Shown: piece by piece, positions 3,066-15,717 of the stretch
How the letters are laid out: each line of letters begins with the position of its first letter
Numbering within the stretch: position 1 is the stretch's first letter
Assembly (NCBI GenBank): GCA_029561455.1
Contig: JAKQIY010000048.1
Span: 1 to 51,704 of the forward strand
Reading direction: 5' to 3'
Source: a bacterium
GTDB lineage: Bacteria > Zhuqueibacterota > Zhuqueibacteria > Residuimicrobiales > Krinioviventaceae
DNA: 51,704 nt
Made by a program: the position numbers and the translations under genes
Notes under the pieces: model-generated
What the model was told of the DNA's origin: nothing
What the model saw: the letters and a program-made list of their open reading frames with translations, nothing else
Databases searched by the model: none

Positions 3066-4247
3066 ATGAGAAACAGTACAATTTTTTGCAACACTATGCT
3101 GCTTGTTACCAGTCTTTTATTATTTATTGCTGTCGCCGGCAGCGCCCAGAATTTTCGTATGACGCCCAATGATACCCTGGTTTCCCCGCGTATCTTGCCG
3201 GACAACAAGGTACAATTCAGCATCTATGCGCCGGAAGCCAAAGCGGTGCTGCTGGGCGGCTCCGACATACCCGATTTGATGCAAAACAATAAACTGACCA
3301 AAAATGCAGACGGTGTATGGACGTTGCAATTTGGCCCTGTTGCCCCAGGCGCTTATCGATATAATTTCAATGTTGACGGGTTGTCCGTAACCGATCCGCG
3401 CAATACATCAATCAGTGAATCCAACAGTAATGTATGGAGCCTGTTGTATGTACCGGGCGCGGACTTTATGGATACTCATAAAGTCCGGCATGGCGCGATA
3501 GCAGAGATAACCTATTTTTCCAAAACCCTGAATAAATTCCGCCGTATGCACATCTACACGCCGCCCGGTTATGAAATTGGCAGTGAAAAATATCCTGTAT
3601 TCTATTTACTGCATGGCGCCGGTGATTGCGACGATTCCTGGTCAACCGTTGGCCGCGCCGGGTTTATTCTCGATAATCTGATCGCCGCGCAAAAAGCCAA
3701 ACCAATGATCGTAGTTATGCCGGCCGGACACACCGGGCCGTTCCTTTGGGGCCGCCGCGGCAGCGATGGCGCCCGTCCCCCGGTTGATGAATTTTTACTC
3801 GATTTCACCAACGACATATTGCCTTATACGGAAACCCACTACCGCGTATTGACAGATCGTCAGCATCGCGCTATTGCCGGGCTTTCTATGGGCGGCTCTC
3901 ATACCCTCAACATTGCCATACCGCACATGGAACTGTTTGCCTGGATCGGTGTGTACAGCTCCGGAATTTTTGGCATAACCGGCGGTAATAACCAATTCGG
4001 CAATGCCGGGCAGAGTTGGGAAGATGAACACAAACAGGAATTGAGTAATACCGAATTGATCAAAGGCATCAAACTGTTCTGGTTTGCCACCGGCAAGGAT
4101 GATTTCTTGGTCGAAACCACCCGCGCTACCGTGGATATGTTCAAAAAACATGGTTTCAACCCGGTTTACAAAGAAACCACCGGCGCCCATACCTGGATTA
4201 ACTGGCAATTATATCTGAACGAATTTGCGTCGCTGTTATTTCAATAA
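3066..4247 (+). CDS. Secreted esterase, feruloyl-esterase/EsterD family, with N-terminal E-set domain
   Basis: This 393-residue protein carries a signal peptide (residues 1 to about 27, ending GSAQ), so it is exported. An immunoglobulin-like E-set/CBM48-type domain spans about 35-135 (KVQFSIYAPEAKAV, GAYRYNFNVDG). An alpha/beta-hydrolase esterase domain follows (about 145-393). The nucleophile is Ser274 in GLSMGG, with the likely acid at Asp345 or Asp346 and the base at His375 in GAHTW. LLHGAGD at about 181-187 supplies the oxyanion region. This architecture is common in acetyl-xylan and feruloyl esterases of polysaccharide-degrading bacteria. The substrate cannot be read from sequence. GGAGG lies just upstream of the ATG. 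It stands alone but shares a saccharolytic theme with the GH43 gene at 13444. Confidence 0.88.
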   Translation: MRNSTIFCNTMLLVTSLLLFIAVAGSAQNFRMTPNDTLVSPRILPDNKVQFSIYAPEAKAVLLGGSDIPDLMQNNKLTKNADGVWTLQFGPVAPGAYRYNFNVDGLSVTDPRNTSISESNSNVWSLLYVPGADFMDTHKVRHGAIAEITYFSKTLNKFRRMHIYTPPGYEIGSEKYPVFYLLHGAGDCDDSWSTVGRAGFILDNLIAAQKAKPMIVVMPAGHTGPFLWGRRGSDGARPPVDEFLLDFTNDILPYTETHYRVLTDRQHRAIAGLSMGGSHTLNIAIPHMELFAWIGVYSSGIFGITGGNNQFGNAGQSWEDEHKQELSNTELIKGIKLFWFATGKDDFLVETTRATVDMFKKHGFNPVYKETTGAHTWINWQLYLNEFASLLFQ

Positions 4248-5100: not shown

Positions 5101-7074
5101 ATGATACGAAAATTCCCATTTCTATCCTTTTCAAGTGTTTTGCTGTTATTCCTCCAGATCAATCTAGTCTTCGCGCAGAAAAAAGCTCTTGAAGAGTTGC
5201 TGAACATGAGCCTGGAAGAGCTATCCAATATCCAGGTGATAACTGCCTCCAAAATCCCTCAAAATATAGAAACCGTGCCCGCCACAGTCCGGGTGATAAC
5301 GACAGAGCAGATCGCCAATAACGGCTACCTGACCCTTGAAGAAGCGCTTGCTGATCTGCCCGGCATGCAATTCCGCAACATAAACGGCTTTAACAGTTAT
5401 GTTTTTATGCGCGGAGTACCCAGCCAAAACAACCTCATTCTGGTGCTGGTTGACGGCATACAGATCAATGAACTGAATTCCGGCGGATTTTACGGCGGCG
5501 GACAATACAATCTCCAAAACGTTGACCGGATTGAAATTGTCTATGGCCCGGCATCGGCGCTATATGGCACCAATGCCGTTTCCGGTATCGTCAATATTAT
5601 TACTAAATCTCCCCAAACCCATACAGGCCTGGATCTGTATGCACTATACGGCACTTTTAATACGGTCAACGCCGGTTTTAATTATGGGCAATGGTCGAAT
5701 GAGCGAGACCTGGGCTGGCGGATTTCCGGTATGTTCAAAACCACGCAAAAAGCCAATCTCAAAGGCGCTGCCGGTGATAATAACTGGTCCGATAACATGG
5801 AGAATTTTGAGGACGATTATTCCATTGACGCCAGGTTAACCTGGCGCCGCTTTGACTGGGGATTAAATTATCAAAACAAGCAGACTTCGACAGCCACATA
5901 TAACAAAGCCATTGGTACTCATTACCTCGATACGGATACATACTGGAACATTCGTTTTATCAATTCCTGGCTCAGGCACAATATCGAGATCAATAAAAAG
6001 ATCAGCATTGTTACCCAGGCTTATTATCGCAATTCTACGGTGATGGATAATTCCGTTCTGATTGTTACAGACACATCGCAAGTTGGGTATTACCGGCCCA
6101 ATCAGCTTGCAGGCATTGAAAACCTCGTAAATTATAATCCGACCCCAAAATCTCAGTTTATTGCAGGGATCGTATATGAATATGAAGAACTGGCGCATGG
6201 TTATTCGAACACATCCAGTCCCGCACCCAATATTCGCCCGCTCAGGCCGCCCAAACCGGATATGGATGAAAATACTTTATTCAGTATTTATGGACAATAC
6301 CGCTACAAGATCTATAATTCATTAAAACTGTATGCCGGCGCCCGCTTTGATAACAGCAGTATTTATGACCAGGTAGTAACGCCCCGGTTAGGGTTGGTAT
6401 TTAATAAAAATCATTACACCGGCAAATTACTCTACACCGAAGCATTCCGGGCGCCCAAAGCCTGGGACTATACCGACGGTGTAGGCAATCCAAACCTCAA
6501 ACCGGAAGAGATCAGTTCCCTGGAATTTTATTCCGCATATAATTTCAAGCCAACAATGCGGGTAGATATTTCTGTGTTTAGGAATTTTATTTCCAATAAA
6601 CTGGTCAAAGAGAATACACAGAATTCCTGGCGCTGGATCAATTATGGCGAATTGCACACCAACGGCTTGGAACTGACCCTGGAATATGAAAAACAGCCGC
6701 TGCAAACCTGGTGCAATTACTCATTAAACCGCTCACTTGATGAAAACGATGCATTCATTCCCGAAATCAGCAAACATCAGTTTAATGCAGGATTGCATTA
6801 CCGTATCACACAAAAATTACGTTTTACAGTAAACGGCCATTATTACGGAGAAAGAAAGAATCCCCGTGTTATTCAGTCCACCGGCAGCGATATGATTAAA
6901 GCAGCGCTGGTTATGAATGCCTCCCTCGCCTGGCTGCTGAATGACCAACTGGAAATCCGTTTGTTCGGTAAAAATATTCTGGATGCTGAATACTATCACA
7001 CTTCAAACTTGCCTCCGGACCGCTATCGACAGCCGCAGCGCAGTTTAACAGTTCAGGCCAATGTTCATTATTAG
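5101..7074 (+). CDS. TonB-dependent outer-membrane receptor
   Basis: This 657-residue protein has a signal peptide (1 to about 25, ending VFAQ). A plug domain spans roughly 45-165, with the signatures DLPGMQFRNI, FMRGVP and VDGIQINE, and VERIEIVYGP-type residues followed by ALYGTNAVSGIVNIIT. The rest is a 22-strand-type barrel with alternating aromatic residues, ending in a C-terminal aromatic (VHY). Residues about 30-45 carry the LLNMSLEELSNIQVITASK phrase, often found at the start of receptors that sit beside sensor kinases. There is no carboxypeptidase-like or STN domain. It is the first gene of a plus-strand operon; yfiR-like, kinase and receiver genes follow within short gaps. The ligand is unknown. 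A role as an outer-membrane sensor rather than a pure importer is my inference from the neighbours. Confidence 0.9.
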   Translation: MIRKFPFLSFSSVLLLFLQINLVFAQKKALEELLNMSLEELSNIQVITASKIPQNIETVPATVRVITTEQIANNGYLTLEEALADLPGMQFRNINGFNSYVFMRGVPSQNNLILVLVDGIQINELNSGGFYGGGQYNLQNVDRIEIVYGPASALYGTNAVSGIVNIITKSPQTHTGLDLYALYGTFNTVNAGFNYGQWSNERDLGWRISGMFKTTQKANLKGAAGDNNWSDNMENFEDDYSIDARLTWRRFDWGLNYQNKQTSTATYNKAIGTHYLDTDTYWNIRFINSWLRHNIEINKKISIVTQAYYRNSTVMDNSVLIVTDTSQVGYYRPNQLAGIENLVNYNPTPKSQFIAGIVYEYEELAHGYSNTSSPAPNIRPLRPPKPDMDENTLFSIYGQYRYKIYNSLKLYAGARFDNSSIYDQVVTPRLGLVFNKNHYTGKLLYTEAFRAPKAWDYTDGVGNPNLKPEEISSLEFYSAYNFKPTMRVDISVFRNFISNKLVKENTQNSWRWINYGELHTNGLELTLEYEKQPLQTWCNYSLNRSLDENDAFIPEISKHQFNAGLHYRITQKLRFTVNGHYYGERKNPRVIQSTGSDMIKAALVMNASLAWLLNDQLEIRLFGKNILDAEYYHTSNLPPDRYRQPQRSLTVQANVHY

Positions 7075-7110
7075 AAAAGCAATACTGACCAGAAATTACG
7101 GTAGCATTAA

Positions 7111-7641
7111 ATGAAAATGAAATTATTAACAATTGTATTCATCATTACGGGTTCCCTGGCCATCACTAGTGCAGCGCCTATGCAAAACCAGGATTATACC
7201 AACAATATAAAAGCGGCATTTATATATAATTTTACCAAATATCTGAGTTGGGCCGAACAGGATTACCCGGTCTTTACCATAGGCGTCATCGGTAACAGCG
7301 CTATCATCCCCCCGTTACAGGAAATCGCTCAGCAACGCCGGGTTGAACAAAAAGAAATTATAATTAAACAATATCAGGATGCAGCGCATATTGACCAATG
7401 TGATATACTATTCATTCCCGAATCAGGCAAAAATCAATTGACGGAAATAACTGCCAGGCTGCAAGGTAAAAACACTTTACTCATTAGTGAAATTAATGGC
7501 GCACTGGCTGATGGAGTGATGATCAATTTTTTAAACATTGAAGAGACCATCAAGTTTGAAATTAATTTAAAGGCGATGAATGAGATGAATTTTCATCCCA
7601 GTTCACAGCTTTTAAAAGTAGCCGTTCGGGTTATTGAATAG
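7111..7641 (+). CDS. YfiR/HmsC-like periplasmic protein (DUF4154)
   Basis: This 176-residue protein has a signal peptide (1-21). A YfiR-family domain follows, with the typical opening NIKAAFIYNFTKYLSW (residues about 31-46) and matches to FTIGVIGNS, CDILFIPES and LLISEINGA, ending IKFEINLKAM. In Pseudomonas, YfiR is a periplasmic repressor that binds the sensor part of the diguanylate cyclase YfiN. Here the next gene is a histidine kinase rather than a cyclase. It lies 36 bases after the receptor and 11 bases before the kinase, whose ribosome-binding site AGGAGG overlaps this intergenic gap. It probably relays the state of the receptor or the envelope to the kinase sensor domain. Confidence 0.88.
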   Translation: MKMKLLTIVFIITGSLAITSAAPMQNQDYTNNIKAAFIYNFTKYLSWAEQDYPVFTIGVIGNSAIIPPLQEIAQQRRVEQKEIIIKQYQDAAHIDQCDILFIPESGKNQLTEITARLQGKNTLLISEINGALADGVMINFLNIEETIKFEINLKAMNEMNFHPSSQLLKVAVRVIE

Positions 7642-7652
7642 GAGGACGACCA

Positions 7653-9560
7653 ATGAAACATGGAAAATATTTTTCCATAAAAAACAAATTGATCCTCATT
7701 CAATTGTTGACCACCTTTTCCGTACTGTTATTTTATAGTCTATTCCATATATTACGTGATTCCCGTTTTTATATGGATTCAGCAAAACGGGAACTCTATT
7801 CCATGACGGAATTGCTTGGCTCTAACTGTATCTCCGCCCTGCATTTTATCGACCGGCAAACGGCAGGTAACATTCTTGCTACGCTAGCGGTTCAGGAACA
7901 AGTTTTCAATGCCTGGATCTTTGATGCTGAAAACAACCTGTTTGCCGAATATCATAAACCGGGTCATGAAAATCAAAGTCCGGTAGCGTTATTATCAGAT
8001 TCAATAATCGTGCAAAATGAAGATATGACTATAATAAAGCCGGTTCAGGATGATGGCGAGGTAATCGGCTATATATCCATTCGTTACAGCTTGCAGAGCT
8101 ATAAACAGATCATTGCGAAAAGTAAGACCAATTCCCTGGTCATTTTTTTCATCGGTATGGGCGCCGCTTTGTTGCTGGCGGTGGTTACGCAAAGAACAAT
8201 TTCCAATCCCATATTAAAATTACTGGCGAATATGAAAAAAATTTCCGAGACCGGAGATTATTCAATTCGCCCGACAAAGGAGCGGGATGATGAAATCGGT
8301 TCGCTTGCGGATGGTGTGAGCGAAATGCTCTCGCAGATACAACTCCGCGAGGAGGAAAGAAACCGGTTCGACCGCGCCCTGCAGGAAAGCGAAGAAAAAT
8401 ATCGCAACGTTGTGGAACGGGCTAATGACGGGATCATCATTTTACAGGATGGCGTTTTCAAGTATGTTAATCCCAGCCTGTTAGAAATGGCGGAATGTTC
8501 GGAACAGGATTTACTCGGCATTCCCTTTTCACGGTTTGTGCCGCCGGAAGAATTATCAAAAATCGTAGCTAATTTTAACAAGCGCATGGCGGGAGAACCG
8601 GTGCCAACCATGTATGAAACACGCTTTTTGACCAGCAAGGGTAAAACCGTCGATGCCGAAGTAAATGCCGGTTATATCACATTTGAAGGTAAACCTGCGG
8701 ACCTGGTGATGATACGCAATATTACGGAAAGAAAGATCATCGAACAGGAACTTGAAAAGCACAAGGAACGGCTCGAAGATATGGTAGCCGAACGGACGGC
8801 GCAATTAGAGGCGGCCAACGAGCGCTTGCTGGAACTGGATCGCATGAAATCCATGTTCCTGGCTTCCATGAGCCACGAGTTACGCACGCCGCTGAATTCT
8901 ATTATTGGCTTTACCGGCCTGCTGCTTATGGAGTTGGCCGGCGGTCTAAATCCAGAACAAAAAAAACAACTGGAAATGGTGAAAAGCAGTTCTTCGCATT
9001 TGCTGGAGTTGATCAATGATATTCTGGATATTTCTAAAATCGAATCGGGCAAGGTGGTCCTGGCTATTGAAAGTTTTGATTTGCTGGATGTCGTCCATGA
9101 GGCGCTGACTGCCATACAACCTTTGGCTGCAAATAAAGGGTTAAAAGTATTAAGTTCAGGAGCACATAAAATCAGGATAACCAGCGACCGGCGCCGGGTC
9201 AAACAAATATTAATGAATCTGGCCGGAAATTCAGTCAAATTCACCGAACAGGGCTATATCGAAATGACGGTTAATACCGAAAATCAGCAAACAGTAACAA
9301 TAAATGTTAAAGATACCGGCATTGGCATTACAGAGAAGGATTTGGAAAGATTATTCCATCCCTTCCAGCAAATAGATATGACATCAACCAAAAAATATGA
9401 AGGCACCGGTTTGGGGTTATATCTTACTAAAAAACTGGCCATACTATTACAGGGCGATATATCTGTAATCAGCCAATATGGCAAAGGCAGCACATTCTCG
9501 ATTTCATTGCCGGTAGAGTGGAAAGAGGAGTTGAGTAATGAAAAAAATTTTAATTATTGA
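7653..9560 (+). CDS. Membrane histidine kinase: CHASE8-like sensor, HAMP, PAS, HisKA, HATPase
   Basis: This 635-residue inner-membrane sensor kinase has transmembrane segments at about 13-32 and 160-180. The periplasmic part between them (about 35-155) reads like the CHASE8 sensor of YfiN, with LGSNCISALHFIDRQTAGNILATL and AWIFDAENNLFAEY. A HAMP linker (about 180-235), a PAS domain (about 250-360) and a coiled coil (about 360-395) follow. The HisKA domain carries the phospho-acceptor His408 in SHELRTPLN. The HATPase domain (about 510-625) shows NSVKFT, DTGIGI and GTGLGL boxes. The last 23 bases overlap the following receiver gene, indicating tight coupling. With the YfiR-like protein directly upstream, a YfiR-gated kinase is the natural hypothesis. 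No output domain is attached. Confidence 0.92.
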   Translation: MKHGKYFSIKNKLILIQLLTTFSVLLFYSLFHILRDSRFYMDSAKRELYSMTELLGSNCISALHFIDRQTAGNILATLAVQEQVFNAWIFDAENNLFAEYHKPGHENQSPVALLSDSIIVQNEDMTIIKPVQDDGEVIGYISIRYSLQSYKQIIAKSKTNSLVIFFIGMGAALLLAVVTQRTISNPILKLLANMKKISETGDYSIRPTKERDDEIGSLADGVSEMLSQIQLREEERNRFDRALQESEEKYRNVVERANDGIIILQDGVFKYVNPSLLEMAECSEQDLLGIPFSRFVPPEELSKIVANFNKRMAGEPVPTMYETRFLTSKGKTVDAEVNAGYITFEGKPADLVMIRNITERKIIEQELEKHKERLEDMVAERTAQLEAANERLLELDRMKSMFLASMSHELRTPLNSIIGFTGLLLMELAGGLNPEQKKQLEMVKSSSSHLLELINDILDISKIESGKVVLAIESFDLLDVVHEALTAIQPLAANKGLKVLSSGAHKIRITSDRRRVKQILMNLAGNSVKFTEQGYIEMTVNTENQQTVTINVKDTGIGITEKDLERLFHPFQQIDMTSTKKYEGTGLGLYLTKKLAILLQGDISVISQYGKGSTFSISLPVEWKEELSNEKNFNY

Positions 9561-9897
9561 AGACAATGAAAAAAATTTGTACCTGCTGCGCTTTCTTATC
9601 GAAAAACTCGGCCACCAGGTCATAGAAGCCCGCGACGGACAGGCCGGCGTTGATACTGCCGTTGCCGAAAAACCGGATATCATTTTAATGGATATACAGC
9701 TGCCGGTTATGGACGGCTATGAAACCACCCGGCAAATTCGTAAAATGGCTGAATTTAAAGATACTCCAATTATCGCCATCACCTCTTATGCCATGGTTGG
9801 CGACCGGGAAAAAACACTCGCCGCCGGCTGTACAGACTATATTGAAAAACCGATCCAACCGGAAAGTTTTATTAAGCACATTCAAAAATATTTTTAA
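9538..9897 (+). CDS. Stand-alone receiver protein (DivK/CheY-like)
   Basis: This 119-residue protein is a single REC domain. Acidic pair Glu8-Asp9, phospho-acceptor Asp52 in LMDIQLP, switch Thr in AITS and Lys in EKPIQ are all present. No DNA-binding or enzymatic output domain follows. Its ATG lies inside the end of the upstream kinase gene, so the two are translated together and the kinase is the likely phosphodonor. Similar lone receivers next to HisKA kinases act as phospho-shuttles or allosteric regulators. Confidence 0.92.
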   Translation: MKKILIIEDNEKNLYLLRFLIEKLGHQVIEARDGQAGVDTAVAEKPDIILMDIQLPVMDGYETTRQIRKMAEFKDTPIIAITSYAMVGDREKTLAAGCTDYIEKPIQPESFIKHIQKYF

Positions 9898-9907
9898 AGG
9901 AACCGGT

Positions 9908-12781
9908 ATGAAAATTCTCATAGTCGATGATATGAAAGAAAACCTTTTGCTGCTCAATACGCTGTTAACCGGTTTTAGGCATACGGTTGTCCAGGCAATG
10001 AACGGCCAGGAGGCATTACAAAAGCTGAAAAACGACTCTTTTGATATGATCGTATCCGATATACTCATGCCGGTGATGGACGGTTACGAGCTTTGTCAAA
10101 AATGTAAAAGCGACCCTGACTTACACCAAATTCTTTTTATATTTTATACCGCGACCTATACGGATAAGGAAGATGAAAAGTATGCAATGCAACTGGGCGC
10201 CGACCGGTTTTTGATCAAGCCAATGGATCCCGGAGATTTTATGACGGCAATACGCAGTGTTGCGCAAAAAGCCGAACAGCATAAAATCCCTCACCGGGAA
10301 CCGGCAATTTCGGACATTGAGACAATAAAAAAACACCGCGACCGGCTTTTGAATAAACTCGGTAAAAAAGTTGATGAACTGAATATTGAAATTAGTGAAC
10401 GAAAGAAAGCGGAAGAAAAATATTGGCAATTAATTGAATCGACGCCTCATGCGATCATGATCCACAGTGATGGTAAAATTATTTATTCTAACCAGGCCGG
10501 GTTCCGCTTACTGGAAGTTGATAATGGTAAAAAACTTGTCGGCAGAAATTTGCTTGATTTCATACATTCTGACTATCATGAGCAATTTAAGGAAAAGACT
10601 GAATTATTGCTCACCGGAGCGACTCTGTCAAAATCTTGTCATGGACAATTCTTAACTATAAATGGAACGAGTATTGATGTTGAAGTAACCTGTTTACCAA
10701 CCATTTATAATGGCAAGACAGCTATTCAATTGATCATTTGGGATATTACTGAACAAAAAAAAGCTGAAAATATTCTGCGTAATAATGAAGCGCAACAGGC
10801 AATTGCCATGAAAATTGCCAAACTGGGGTATTGGGAATACGATGCAGTAAACAAAATATTCACCTTTAATGATGCCTTTTATTCGATCTATCATACTACA
10901 GCGGAAAAAGAGGGCGGTTTTACCATGCCTGCTCTACAATATTTTAAAAAATTTATTCACCCTGATGACCGGCGCCTGGTCGAAAATACCATGAACGAGT
11001 TTTTGCAAACAGGCAATACAGAAAAAAGTTATCAGTTTGAACACCGGATCATCTATTCAACCGGAGAGACCGGAACTATCACCGTGCATTTCAATATCAT
11101 CAAAGACCAGCAAGGCCGCATCGTCAAACTGCTTGGCGCCAACCAGGATATAAGCGAACGTAAAAAGATTGAAAGCTCCTTACAGGAAAGCGAGGAACGC
11201 TATCGTATGATCGCCGATCACGTCGGCGATGTGGTTTGGCAACTGGATCCGACTTTACATTTTGTTTATGTCAGTCCGGCTGTGCAGCATGTATTGGGGT
11301 ATACAATAGAAGAGACTCTGGGAGAACTGGTAACCGACTATCTGAATGAAGATGAAATGCAAAAAATGAAACAAGTGATCCAGAAGCGGATGACTTCTCC
11401 CCTCACTCCGCCCACTCCAACCCAATATAAAATGAAACATAAAGATGGACATTGGGTGGATGTTGAAGTTGTTTCTTCTCCTGTGTTTACCAAAAATGGT
11501 CAATTTTCCGGTTTTGCCGGGATTACCAGGGATATTACCGAACGCAAACGGGGGGAAAAGGCGCTTGAAGCGGCCAACCAACGCCTGAGAATTTTGCACC
11601 GCATCACTGAAACAGTGCACAAGAGCCTGGAATTAAATGTTATTTTTAGTTCCATAACCCAAGCAGTTGTTACCGAAATGGGCTTTTCAACAGCAATTGT
11701 AGTCACTCTTGATGCAGATGGAGAAATTTATCGTGTGCGGTCACTAATTTCCTCTAAAAAGTATATGGCGCAAATAGATAAATTAATGGGGCACCCGTTT
11801 AAAAATCTGTCATTCCCTGCCAATCGCATTATCAAAGCAGCCCAAAATACCACTGCAACCGGGGAAATGATCATCAAAAGCCGTCTCTATCACATAGCCT
11901 GTCCGCCGTTTAAAAAAATTGTTTGTGAACAGATGCAAAAACTCAGCGACAGTAAAAGCTACATCCTCGCGCCCCTGGTGCTTTCCGGAAAAACCTTGGG
12001 GGCATTGGTCGTTTCCAGCCCCAAAACAATAAATGAATTACAAGATGCCGACCTGGAAATGCTTGGTACGTTTGCCTCTACAGCTGTTCAGGCAATTGCC
12101 AATGCCGGGTTACTCGCGGAAACCAATAAAGCCAAAGAGCAAATCCAGGACAATTTAGAGGAAAAAGAGGTGCTGTTACGTGAATTATATCACCGCACCA
12201 AAAACAACATGCAGGTTATTGCTTCCATGCTGCGTATTCATGCCAGCCGCTTGAAGGATGAAAATCTCAAACGTATTTGCTATGATGTGGAAAATAAAAT
12301 ACTATCTATGGCAATTGTGCATCAAAAATTATACGAATCACAAAACTTGTCGCACCTGAATTTGAAAGAGTATTTTAACAATTTGCTGGAACTGCTGGCA
12401 AACAGTTTTGCCGCCGACCACATAAAATTCACCCTTGAAGGCGATGATGTTAAAGTATTGATCGATACCGCCATCCCCTGCGGCTTGATCCTCAATGAGT
12501 TGATCACCAATTCAATCAAGCATGCCTTTCCGGACAATCGTGAGGGAGAAATAAAAGTCAGATTATACCTGACCCGTAAAAATGAATTGGTCATACAAGT
12601 TGCCGATAACGGCGCCGGTTTGCCGCCGGGCTTTAATTTTAAAAAGGATATGCGATTGGGGTTGGAATCTGTAATTGTACTGGTGGAACACCAGTTACAA
12701 GGCAAGATCAATTTTAAAAACCATAACGGCTTGTATTGCAAAATTGTATTGAAAGAAGAATTGTATCAACCGAGAATATAA
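9908..12781 (+). CDS. Soluble hybrid sensor kinase: REC, three PAS, GAF, HisKA_2
   Basis: This 957-residue protein is predicted cytoplasmic, with no membrane segment. An N-terminal receiver (residues 1-120) has Asp7-Asp8 and phospho-acceptor Asp51. Three PAS domains lie at about 180-295, 300-425 and 430-555, each ending in a DITE/DISERK PAC phrase. A GAF-like domain (about 570-735) follows. The HisKA_2 dimerisation segment has a YHRTKNNMQ box with His762, and the HATPase (about 850-955) carries NELITNSIKHAF and DNGAGLP. The start at 9908 is chosen because AAAGGAACC precedes it and the receiver begins there; a longer in-frame upstream extension would run through the previous gene. HisKA_2 kinases often respond to light, redox or stress and pair with atypical receivers. 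The N-terminal REC suggests it is itself an acceptor in a phosphorelay. Confidence 0.9.
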   Translation: MKILIVDDMKENLLLLNTLLTGFRHTVVQAMNGQEALQKLKNDSFDMIVSDILMPVMDGYELCQKCKSDPDLHQILFIFYTATYTDKEDEKYAMQLGADRFLIKPMDPGDFMTAIRSVAQKAEQHKIPHREPAISDIETIKKHRDRLLNKLGKKVDELNIEISERKKAEEKYWQLIESTPHAIMIHSDGKIIYSNQAGFRLLEVDNGKKLVGRNLLDFIHSDYHEQFKEKTELLLTGATLSKSCHGQFLTINGTSIDVEVTCLPTIYNGKTAIQLIIWDITEQKKAENILRNNEAQQAIAMKIAKLGYWEYDAVNKIFTFNDAFYSIYHTTAEKEGGFTMPALQYFKKFIHPDDRRLVENTMNEFLQTGNTEKSYQFEHRIIYSTGETGTITVHFNIIKDQQGRIVKLLGANQDISERKKIESSLQESEERYRMIADHVGDVVWQLDPTLHFVYVSPAVQHVLGYTIEETLGELVTDYLNEDEMQKMKQVIQKRMTSPLTPPTPTQYKMKHKDGHWVDVEVVSSPVFTKNGQFSGFAGITRDITERKRGEKALEAANQRLRILHRITETVHKSLELNVIFSSITQAVVTEMGFSTAIVVTLDADGEIYRVRSLISSKKYMAQIDKLMGHPFKNLSFPANRIIKAAQNTTATGEMIIKSRLYHIACPPFKKIVCEQMQKLSDSKSYILAPLVLSGKTLGALVVSSPKTINELQDADLEMLGTFASTAVQAIANAGLLAETNKAKEQIQDNLEEKEVLLRELYHRTKNNMQVIASMLRIHASRLKDENLKRICYDVENKILSMAIVHQKLYESQNLSHLNLKEYFNNLLELLANSFAADHIKFTLEGDDVKVLIDTAIPCGLILNELITNSIKHAFPDNREGEIKVRLYLTRKNELVIQVADNGAGLPPGFNFKKDMRLGLESVIVLVEHQLQGKINFKNHNGLYCKIVLKEELYQPRI

Positions 12782-12782
12782 T

Positions 12783-13166
12783 ATGAACAACAAAATCAAA
12801 GTATTGATAGCAGAAGATGAAGCAATAACCGCGATGAGTTTGAAAATTGATCTGGAATGTCACGGTATTGCGGCCTTGCCGCCGGTTGCGACCGGTAAGG
12901 ATGCCGTACATCTGGCCTGTAAAGAAAAACCCGATCTTATTTTAATGGATATTCGCCTTAATGAAGATATGGACGGTATTGAAGCCGCTGCAGAAATATT
13001 AAAGCATCACAACATTCCGATTATTTTTATGACCGGCTTTACCACCGATACTATAAAAAAACGCGCTATAAAATTGCACCCACTCGATTTCCTCGAAAAA
13101 CCCTTGGATATGAACAGAGTAAAGCAGCTCATAGACAACATATCTTTAGAAGAGAATACGCTGTAA
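12783..13166 (+). CDS. Stand-alone receiver protein
   Basis: This 127-residue REC domain has Glu11-Asp12, phospho-acceptor Asp56 in LMDIRLNEDMDG, a Thr in MTGF and Lys in LEKPL. The MDIRLxxxMDGIEAA form is typical of receivers associated with HisKA_2 kinases. The ATG follows the stop of the preceding kinase by one base, so the kinase and this receiver probably form a cognate pair. It has no output domain. It ends the operon; the next gene begins nearly 280 bases further on. Confidence 0.92.
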   Translation: MNNKIKVLIAEDEAITAMSLKIDLECHGIAALPPVATGKDAVHLACKEKPDLILMDIRLNEDMDGIEAAAEILKHHNIPIIFMTGFTTDTIKKRAIKLHPLDFLEKPLDMNRVKQLIDNISLEENTL

Positions 13167-13443
13167 ATAAATATTACACCTGTTTTCCGGGGGAAAAGTA
13201 TTTCTGTATAGCAACACTTACCGACACTATTTTTATATTGACTGTGAATTGAATCAGCACATACTTTGCTAAAAAATTAATTTTAATCTTGAATTTTTCA
13301 GCAATTATTTGTTTATTAGAATCAGTTAAATAATATTTTGATTTGAACAAATTTCATTAACCCTGATTCTGATGTTGCTGAATCACCAGGCACCCGCTGT
13401 AAAATCTGATTACTATTGTAACACCAATCATCACGGAGGAAAA

Positions 13444-15717
13444 ATGTCAAGAGTAAAATTTTTAATTGTTTGTTTGCTTTTTATTGTTAATTACAGTTAC
13501 AGCCAATCCCCATCCTTTAGGACCTTTATGAATCCGGTCATACCGGGCGATCACCCGGATTGTACGCTATCAAAATTTGGCGACGATTTTTACACAACCG
13601 GGTCGTCATTCAATCCCACCCCGGTCATCTATCATTCAACCGACCTGGTGCACTGGGAAGCCATAGCGCAGCCGGTTTCGCCGTCATGGAGTTTGTATGG
13701 CGATGCCCCGGCCGGCGGCTGCTGGGGAGGTCACCTGGTTTACTATAATAATAAATACTGGCATTTTTTTGGGAAAAATGCCATCATGTACTATGTTACC
13801 GCCAATGATCCGGCCGGGCCATGGAGCCATCCCCCGGTGGCCTTGACTTGTCCGCCGGAGCTTCCCGGTTTGGGTATGGATAATTCAATTTTCATCGATG
13901 ATGATAATTCCTGGTATCTGCTGGTGAAAAACGGCCAGTCTGTAAACTGGATCGTACAACTGGGAGATGACGGTCAACCGTACGGAGCACTCTACAACCT
14001 GAGTTGGCTCAATCCGGCGCCGGGCTATCCCTACAGTTGGGCGGAAGGCCCGGTAATGTGGAAATACAAGGGTTACTATTATTACTGTTTTGCCATAAAT
14101 CTGGCCGGGGGACAAAAGGTAATGCGCAGCGCCACCCTGACCGAAGATCAGTCCTCATGGGAAATGCTGGGTGACTTTTTTAATGAATCCGATCCGAAAA
14201 AATCATCCGCAATTTTCCAGGGACCAAATCACAGTTCCTCTGCTATAATGCTGGAAGATAGCACCTGGTGGGTTATTTATCATGCCAACGCCAAGGCCGG
14301 TTCCAATGAATGGCATGGCATTGGCCGCCAGGGATTGATCAGTCAGGTGCGGTATAATGAAGCTGGCAAACCCACCGCCGATTATTGTACCAACGAGCCG
14401 CACACTGCCCCGGCTTTACCCAGCAGCGGCATCCCCTGGATGGTGCCGAAATCGGATTTCTTTACCGCTGAGAAACTGAATCCCGAATGGTCTTTTCTTG
14501 GTTACACCCCGGATGGCACCTATTCTCTTACCGCTCGGCCCGGCTGGTTCAGGCTATCGCCCAAAGGCAAGGAAAATACCATTATTAAAAATGATGCCGA
14601 ACATAATTATTCGCTCATAACCCGGGTGGATTTCAATGCTGCCGCTACAGCAGACCAGGCCGGTTTGTGGATATTTAACGGCCCGCAAACCCTGTTCGTC
14701 AAACTCTACAGCACGGTTAACACCGCCGGCAATAAAGTGATAGCGTTCAGTTTTGACGCTACCTATTATGAAACGCCGAACACGGCCGGTAATATTGTCT
14801 GGCTCAGGCTGATCCGCATCAATCATGTTGTATACGGGTATTTCAGCGCCGATGGTGTCACCTGGTCTCCGGTAGGCGAAAGCATTAATGTTGCATCAAT
14901 GGATAAAGAACATCCTAATTTTAATGACTTTACGGGTAACCGCCAGGGTATCTATGTCAAAGGTAGCCCCGCTGATTTCGATCTGTATATCTACCGGGAC
15001 GCCTACTCGCCCATCCTCGCCGAATGTCCCGCCAATCAGTATGGGGTTACAGCATCAACGAAAAAAGACGGCATCAGGATCCTGGATAATATCCACAATA
15101 CCGACTGGGCCTTGTATGCCGGCATGGAATTTGGCAATAACGAATATGTAAAAACCCCGGCCATGCTTGAAGTGATTGCTTCGAGCGATGCAAACGGCGG
15201 CCTGATAGAAGTATGGCTCGACTCTCTAGATACCGGTACCAAGGTCGGTGAATGCGTCATTACCGGCACCGGCAGTATGAAAACATTCAAAACATTTACA
15301 GGAACAGTCGCTCCCATAACCGGGCGGCATGATGTGTATTTAAAATTCACCGGCACAGGAGAGGACAAGCTATTCCAGCTAAAATGGCTGCGCTTTTTAA
15401 CCGAAAGCGAAGTTGCCACCTCTTTAGGGGAAAATCAACCCCCGAAACGACCGATTGAAAACTCTTTGCAGCAGAACTATCCCAATCCCTTTAATCCGAC
15501 AACCGAGATTAATTTCTCGATAGCCGAACCATCCTTCGTTTCCCTCAAGGTTTTTAATTTATTAGGGAAAGAAATAAATGAACTGGCCGGTAAAAGCTAT
15601 ACCGCAGGACGGCATTCGGTAACGTTCGACGCCTCAAACCTTGCCAGTGGTATCTATTTTTATAAATTAAACACCGGACATTTTTTGCAAACTAGAAAGA
15701 TGTTCCTGGTAAGATAA
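13444..15717 (+). CDS. Secreted GH43 glycosidase with beta-xylosidase-type C domain, CBM6-like domain and sorting tail
   Basis: The start is taken at 13444 because GGAGG precedes it and a signal peptide (1 to about 20, NYSYSQ) follows; an upstream in-frame ATG at 13372 lacks both. The product has 757 residues. The five-bladed propeller of GH43 spans about 25-330, with the general base Asp39 in DHPD, the pKa-modulating Asp146 in GMDNS and the general acid Glu201 in WAEGP. A concanavalin-like beta-xylosidase C-terminal domain (about 345-525) follows, then a CBM6-like module (about 535-655). The last 80 residues are a Por/type IX secretion sorting domain that begins with a QQNYPNPFNPTTEI motif. 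Family members cleave xylan or arabinan side chains; the exact bond is not readable here. The tail implies secretion or surface attachment through a type IX-like route. Confidence 0.92.
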   Translation: MSRVKFLIVCLLFIVNYSYSQSPSFRTFMNPVIPGDHPDCTLSKFGDDFYTTGSSFNPTPVIYHSTDLVHWEAIAQPVSPSWSLYGDAPAGGCWGGHLVYYNNKYWHFFGKNAIMYYVTANDPAGPWSHPPVALTCPPELPGLGMDNSIFIDDDNSWYLLVKNGQSVNWIVQLGDDGQPYGALYNLSWLNPAPGYPYSWAEGPVMWKYKGYYYYCFAINLAGGQKVMRSATLTEDQSSWEMLGDFFNESDPKKSSAIFQGPNHSSSAIMLEDSTWWVIYHANAKAGSNEWHGIGRQGLISQVRYNEAGKPTADYCTNEPHTAPALPSSGIPWMVPKSDFFTAEKLNPEWSFLGYTPDGTYSLTARPGWFRLSPKGKENTIIKNDAEHNYSLITRVDFNAAATADQAGLWIFNGPQTLFVKLYSTVNTAGNKVIAFSFDATYYETPNTAGNIVWLRLIRINHVVYGYFSADGVTWSPVGESINVASMDKEHPNFNDFTGNRQGIYVKGSPADFDLYIYRDAYSPILAECPANQYGVTASTKKDGIRILDNIHNTDWALYAGMEFGNNEYVKTPAMLEVIASSDANGGLIEVWLDSLDTGTKVGECVITGTGSMKTFKTFTGTVAPITGRHDVYLKFTGTGEDKLFQLKWLRFLTESEVATSLGENQPPKRPIENSLQQNYPNPFNPTTEINFSIAEPSFVSLKVFNLLGKEINELAGKSYTAGRHSVTFDASNLASGIYFYKLNTGHFLQTRKMFLVR

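Follow-up and report, generated by a model that had tools for sequence, protein, structure and literature searches.

In the YfiBNR scheme, YfiR acts as a repressor and an outer-membrane partner releases the repression. In FecA/FecR-type transducers, a TonB-dependent receptor (TBDR) signals inward across the periplasm. Malone et al. in 2012 described YfiNR operons that lack YfiB and have histidine kinase, HPT, GGDEF-EAL or MCP outputs, and they explicitly proposed a modular YfiR-YfiN core (PMC3375315). The same paper reported distant YfiNR homologues in Geobacter sp. M21 and Opitutus terrae. Kinase outputs on YfiR-YfiN cores are thus not new, and each gene of the TBDR, YfiR and kinase combination analyzed here is covered by an NCBIfam model. 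Most of the operon design is therefore already recognised.

We analyzed such an operon in a window of 51,704 nucleotides (the whole stretch of DNA studied; contig JAKQIY010000048.1 of assembly GCA_029561455.1, from a bacterium of the Zhuqueibacterota). Six co-directional genes on the + strand (5101-13166) are separated by gaps of 36, 11, -23, 10 and 1 nt, and each named domain scored above its Pfam cut-off in profile HMM searches. The first gene (5101..7074) encodes a TBDR of 657 amino acids with a signal peptide, a plug (Pfam Plug, E 4e-23) and a beta-barrel (TonB_dep_Rec_b-barrel, E 2.5e-33), whose closest sequences in the PDB are CirA and BtuB. It is followed by a YfiR-like periplasmic protein of the DUF4154 family (7111..7641; 176 amino acids) and by a sensor kinase with the Pfam architecture CHASE8-HAMP-PAS-HisKA-HATPase_c (7653..9560; 635 amino acids, two transmembrane helices). 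Next come a single-domain response regulator (9538..9897; Response_reg, 9e-28), whose gene shares 23 nt with that of the kinase and is not named in the preliminary description introduced below, a cytoplasmic hybrid kinase (9908..12781; REC-PAS x3-GAF-HisKA_2-HATPase according to Pfam) and a second single-domain response regulator (12783..13166; Response_reg, 4e-21). The window's own output thus ends in receiver-only proteins. The most likely start of the hybrid kinase gene is 9908, not the mechanical ORF start at 9719. Motif inspection showed the catalytic residues to be intact, including the H-box SHELRTP, the N-box, DTGIGI and GTGLGL of the kinase and the receiver Asp and Lys. A promoter and terminator scan returned sites that were not more numerous than in shuffled sequences. 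Same-strand genes lie on both sides of the operon, one for a CBM48-esterase (3066-4247) and one for a GH43-CBM6 protein with a T9SS sorting tail (13372-15717); these two neighbours hint at a plant-polysaccharide setting for the TBDR.

A preliminary description, made from the sequence alone, had read the small protein upstream of the kinase as YfiR-like, the kinase sensor as CHASE8 and the HisKA/HATPase part as a replacement for the cyclase output. Our searches bear out all three assignments. The small protein matched DUF4154 (PF13689) with E 9e-36, scoring 123.5 bits where the cut-off is 24.9, and the PDB profile search and the fold agree: a profile of 28 relatives retrieved solved YfiR structures from the PDB at ~2e-9, and the AlphaFold (AF2) model of the protein (pLDDT 89.8) had the solved YfiR 4yn7 as its top Foldseek match (E 1.9e-7, TM 0.75 by target length). 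It has a signal-peptide-like N-terminal segment and no further hydrophobic stretch, and the kinase has two such stretches. The kinase sensor (7779..8081) matched PF17152 (E 2e-18 to 5e-17; over residues 43-143, E 4.8e-17 and 62.5 bits against a cut-off of 27), and the match was stronger when the sensor region was searched alone. Pfam, the transmembrane segments and the AF2 model place the CHASE8 domain between two transmembrane helices and ahead of HAMP, and Pfam finds HisKA/HATPase in place of GGDEF. The AF2 model of the sensor with HAMP (pLDDT 94.1) has a PAS/Cache-type fold and matches extracellular PAS/Cache-type sensors, for instance WalK and CitA, which is consistent with CHASE8; no unrelated domain appeared among its structure matches.

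The contact motifs of the two proteins are conserved. In the CHASE8 domain, SALHF (7833..7847), the putative site of contact with YfiR, aligns with the AAVVF motif of E. coli DgcN, which is the YfiR-contact motif of YfiN/DgcN, and its Phe is kept in 64 of 66 relatives. In YfiR, the FEIN motif (7555..7566; aligned to 4zhy/4yn7 and to E. coli YfiR) is conserved in the YfiR alignments and corresponds to F162/E163 of P. aeruginosa, part of the proposed YfiN-binding surface (PMC3375315, PMC4887326). Compared with the E. coli protein, the window YfiR keeps the C-terminal surface (F, N and L positions) but departs from it in the N-terminal helix and in the disulfide cysteines. Its sole cysteine, C97, stands at the position of P. 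aeruginosa C110, so that neither of the two intramolecular disulfides known from the P. aeruginosa protein (C71-C110 and C145-C152) can form here. The window YfiR also deviates from its relatives at the otherwise near-invariant positions A48, A64, I65 and A131. An N-terminal YfiR helix motif (EY..KAAFLYNFAKFVEWP) is near-invariant in the kinase-linked class and absent from E. coli YfiR; we dropped it as a candidate TBDR-facing surface because it is also present in YfiRs without a nearby TBDR.

The TBDR, YfiR and CHASE8-kinase parts recur together in many bacterial phyla. The genome of the window has four DUF4154 genes, three of which follow a TBDR: that of the window, that of L006, which has a CHASE8–HisKA_2 kinase on its other side, and that of L007, where a kinase is missing. 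The fourth precedes a CHASE8 kinase (L005). All three CHASE8 proteins of this genome that exceed the Pfam cut-off are kinases adjoining DUF4154. Across 82 genomes of the phylum, a CHASE8 gene lies at most 5 kb from 37 of the 47 DUF4154 matches, on the same strand every time. A broad set, for which one scan across genomes retrieved 80 of 478 confirmed relatives, spans Acidobacteria, Nitrospirota, Verrucomicrobia, Armatimonadota, Deltaproteobacteria, Planctomycetota, Gemmatimonadetes, Bacteroidetes, Omnitrophica, Betaproteobacteria and others. Among its loci with enough flanking DNA, a TBDR occurs no further than 4.5 kb from YfiR in 55/59, a CHASE8 protein in 56/59 and the two together in 53/59. 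By the same measure the phylum set, which was gathered by family search and not by gene-layout pattern, gave 26/35, 30/35 and 24/35.

The preliminary description had also placed a TBDR where the outer-membrane sensor would be, and the TBDR proved to be a recurrent neighbour. In 47 of 60 YfiR loci of the broad set a TBDR gene stands directly upstream on the same strand, compared with 12 of 621 other genes in the same loci, which greatly exceeds chance (Fisher p ~4e-49, with the kinship of loci ignored). Because related loci are not independent, we treat the recurrence counts as descriptive. The YfiR and CHASE8 genes typically overlap (median gap -3 bp). YfiR-kinase pairs without a nearby TBDR (L005, L074, L091) and TBDR-YfiR pairs without a nearby kinase (L007, L145) also occur, and a YfiR search against viral contigs gave no match. 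An apparent YfiR–kinase fusion in L180 was discarded as an artefact of a run of N joining neighbouring genes. Natural YfiR-YfiR fusions are seen in L096 (6893-8206) and L097 (4553-5617), where a single ORF carries two tandem DUF4154 domains ahead of a CHASE8 protein. Tandem genes for two CHASE8 proteins, with no YfiR detected beside them, are present in L260, L261 and L266.

YfiR and CHASE8 have co-evolved. For 66 loci with all three genes, the tree of YfiR correlated with that of the N-terminal part of the CHASE8 protein at r 0.82, and, when this part was narrowed to its periplasmic section, at r 0.77 (0.68 without a divergent group). Between this periplasmic section and the kinase core of one and the same chain the correlation was r 0.30 (0.16 without the divergent group), and between YfiR and the kinase core it was r 0.31; the kinase-core tree comparison rests on 51 loci, and the HAMP control, drawn from a short stretch, is noisy. 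The correlation of 0.77 between YfiR and CHASE8, set against 0.30 between sensor and kinase core, supports from sequence comparison a conserved YfiR–CHASE8 unit whose outputs would be exchangeable. Residue-level mutual information, computed for 100 YfiR–CHASE8 pairs (effective number 88), gave top scores barely above those of shuffled pairings and spread over both proteins. The trees of YfiR and TBDR correlated weakly, at r about 0.31-0.37 (0.35 for the 66 loci), above permutations, and this congruence was not significant after controlling for CHASE8 (27/300 permutations).

The CHASE8 partners are mostly kinases: among the 61 that we scanned, 57 contain HATPase_c, 52 HisKA and 33 receiver domains. 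Non-kinase outputs of YfiR-adjacent sensors include MCP (chemotaxis-receptor) domains in L104 (5925-7481) and L169 (9475-11271), and GGDEF–EAL in L111. Nine loci encode a downstream response regulator with GGDEF, seven of these with EAL too. If the proposed TBDR/YfiR input is real, a phosphorelay might still connect it to c-di-GMP in these relatives.

The YfiR-linked TBDRs have in common a near-invariant segment (consensus DLT.LSLE.LMNI.VTSVSK) with a Ton-box-like end directly before the plug. In the window TBDR it reads MSLEELSNIQVITASK (5206..5253), a short helix-like segment with a Ton-box-like stretch. A model of this motif, built from 43 loci with the rows of the window's own genome left out, was tested on 60 TBDRs of three genomes and gave a clean separation, the motif being present in 9 of 10 YfiR-adjacent and 6 of 50 other TBDRs (Fisher p 3e-6). 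Four of the six non-adjacent carriers share one contig (L255) with a neighbouring CHASE8 kinase, and the gene upstream of this kinase is lost at the contig end. We rejected the motif as a strict diagnostic of YfiR linkage because the carriers L196 and L247 have no known link; it may be a marker of one TBDR subfamily. The L255 contig (G017:C52:1-20000) carries the CHASE8 kinase followed by an array of six TBDR genes into which a single kinase gene is inserted; if a YfiR gene exists there, it would lie past the contig end. Another receptor with the YfiR-type N-terminal motif (L220, G000:C78, 6315-8270) has neither YfiR nor a kinase nearby, and L247 in G015 is a similar-looking receptor.

We consider it fairly probable that these genes form a trans-envelope signalling operon that runs from TBDR input through YfiR and the CHASE8 kinase to the receivers. 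Soluble periplasmic YfiR would bind the inner-membrane kinase at its CHASE8 domain, just as YfiR does with YfiN, and would hold the kinase in one signalling state. The TBDR would be the outer-membrane input, binding or transporting a substrate with TonB energy, and its N-terminal segment, or the ligand that it delivers, would alter the availability of YfiR to the sensor. The kinase would then switch and hand phosphate to the overlapping receiver protein, from which it may pass via the REC-HisKA_2 hybrid kinase to the second receiver. We hypothesize that the TBDR motif touches YfiR.

A more indirect coupling is possible, if somewhat doubtful: the TBDR might just import a ligand for which YfiR is the small periplasmic binding protein, and the ligand state would set the CHASE8 kinase without any contact between TBDR and YfiR. 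After 4yn7, the next Foldseek matches of the YfiR model are indeed periplasmic binding proteins, namely a single-domain substrate-binding protein from Rhodothermus and an ABC protein that binds L-Trp. In P. aeruginosa, the YfiB-binding pocket of YfiR accommodates vitamin B6 and L-Trp (PMC4887326). The weak tree congruence of TBDR and YfiR would fit an exchange of receptors. However, import alone leaves unexplained the N-terminal motif common to the YfiR-linked TBDRs.

Transporters commonly share an operon with a dedicated regulator, and the TBDR could likewise be an output: YfiR-CHASE8 would sense redox conditions or the state of the envelope, and the co-transcribed receptor gene would be under the control of the two-component system. 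We judge this unlikely. The response regulators of the window are receiver-only or kinase-linked, without a DNA-binding domain according to Pfam, and the presence of one N-terminal type among YfiR-linked TBDRs goes beyond the need of simple regulation. YfiR-kinase pairs without a nearby TBDR would suit such an arrangement, as would the redox sensitivity of P. aeruginosa YfiR (PMC4887326), although the single cysteine of the window YfiR excludes intramolecular disulfides of that type. Finally, that only YfiR-CHASE8-kinase is functional and the TBDR an incidental neighbour, TBDRs being numerous in such genomes (37 in the window's own), is very improbable, as the counts of upstream neighbours (47/60 versus 12/621) already make it unlikely and the TBDR–YfiR layout recurs in many phyla.

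If the signalling reading is true, receptors of a class generally regarded as importers of nutrients have a direct signalling line to histidine kinases across many phyla, and the signal is carried by YfiR, a protein known mainly from c-di-GMP control. The motifs of YfiR, CHASE8 and TBDR offer specific residues that are open to testing.

Compared with YfiBNR of P. aeruginosa, YfiR-DgcN-YfiB of E. coli and HmsCDE of Yersinia, the window likewise encodes a periplasmic YfiR immediately ahead of an inner-membrane protein with CHASE8-HAMP, with the AAVVF-equivalent and FEIN contact motifs of the YfiBNR/DgcN systems at matching positions. It differs in having a kinase instead of GGDEF, a TBDR, a single cysteine in YfiR and no YfiB. 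As for YfiB, a PF00691 (OmpA/Pal-type) search gave no hit on the contig that bears the window or in the vicinity of the other DUF4154 genes, and a single-sequence search found no YfiB-like gene near YfiR in 120 loci. The YfiNR operons of Malone et al. (PMC3375315) include kinase outputs and also lack YfiB, but that paper makes no mention of TonB receptors; these kinase-linked systems would gain an outer-membrane input if our reading is true. The NCBIfam models NF053590, NF053591 and NF053592 (TOL_0244 TBDR, TOL_0243 YfiR-like protein and YfiR-associated kinase) describe the same three components. The window scored below all three cut-offs (YfiR 121.2/125 bits for NF053591, kinase 161.5/194 for NF053592, TBDR 129.6/645) and is thus a divergent member of the triplet, whereas the L188 operon passed those for YfiR (149/125) and kinase (203/194) and narrowly missed that for the TBDR (598/645). 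In the open-access literature, which leaves most subscription journals outside, we found no paper describing a TBDR–YfiR link. As in FecA/FecR-type transducers, the window TBDR is proposed to signal inward. In contrast to those receptors, the YfiR-linked TBDRs lack an STN domain (0 of 47 scanned, the window TBDR and 46 others) and have YfiR and a kinase as neighbours rather than an anti-sigma/sigma pair. We tentatively suggest that the short N-terminal helix beside the Ton box docks periplasmic YfiR, which would make TBDR-YfiR-CHASE8-kinase a further widespread route of TonB-dependent signalling, distinct from the STN/FecR/sigma one.
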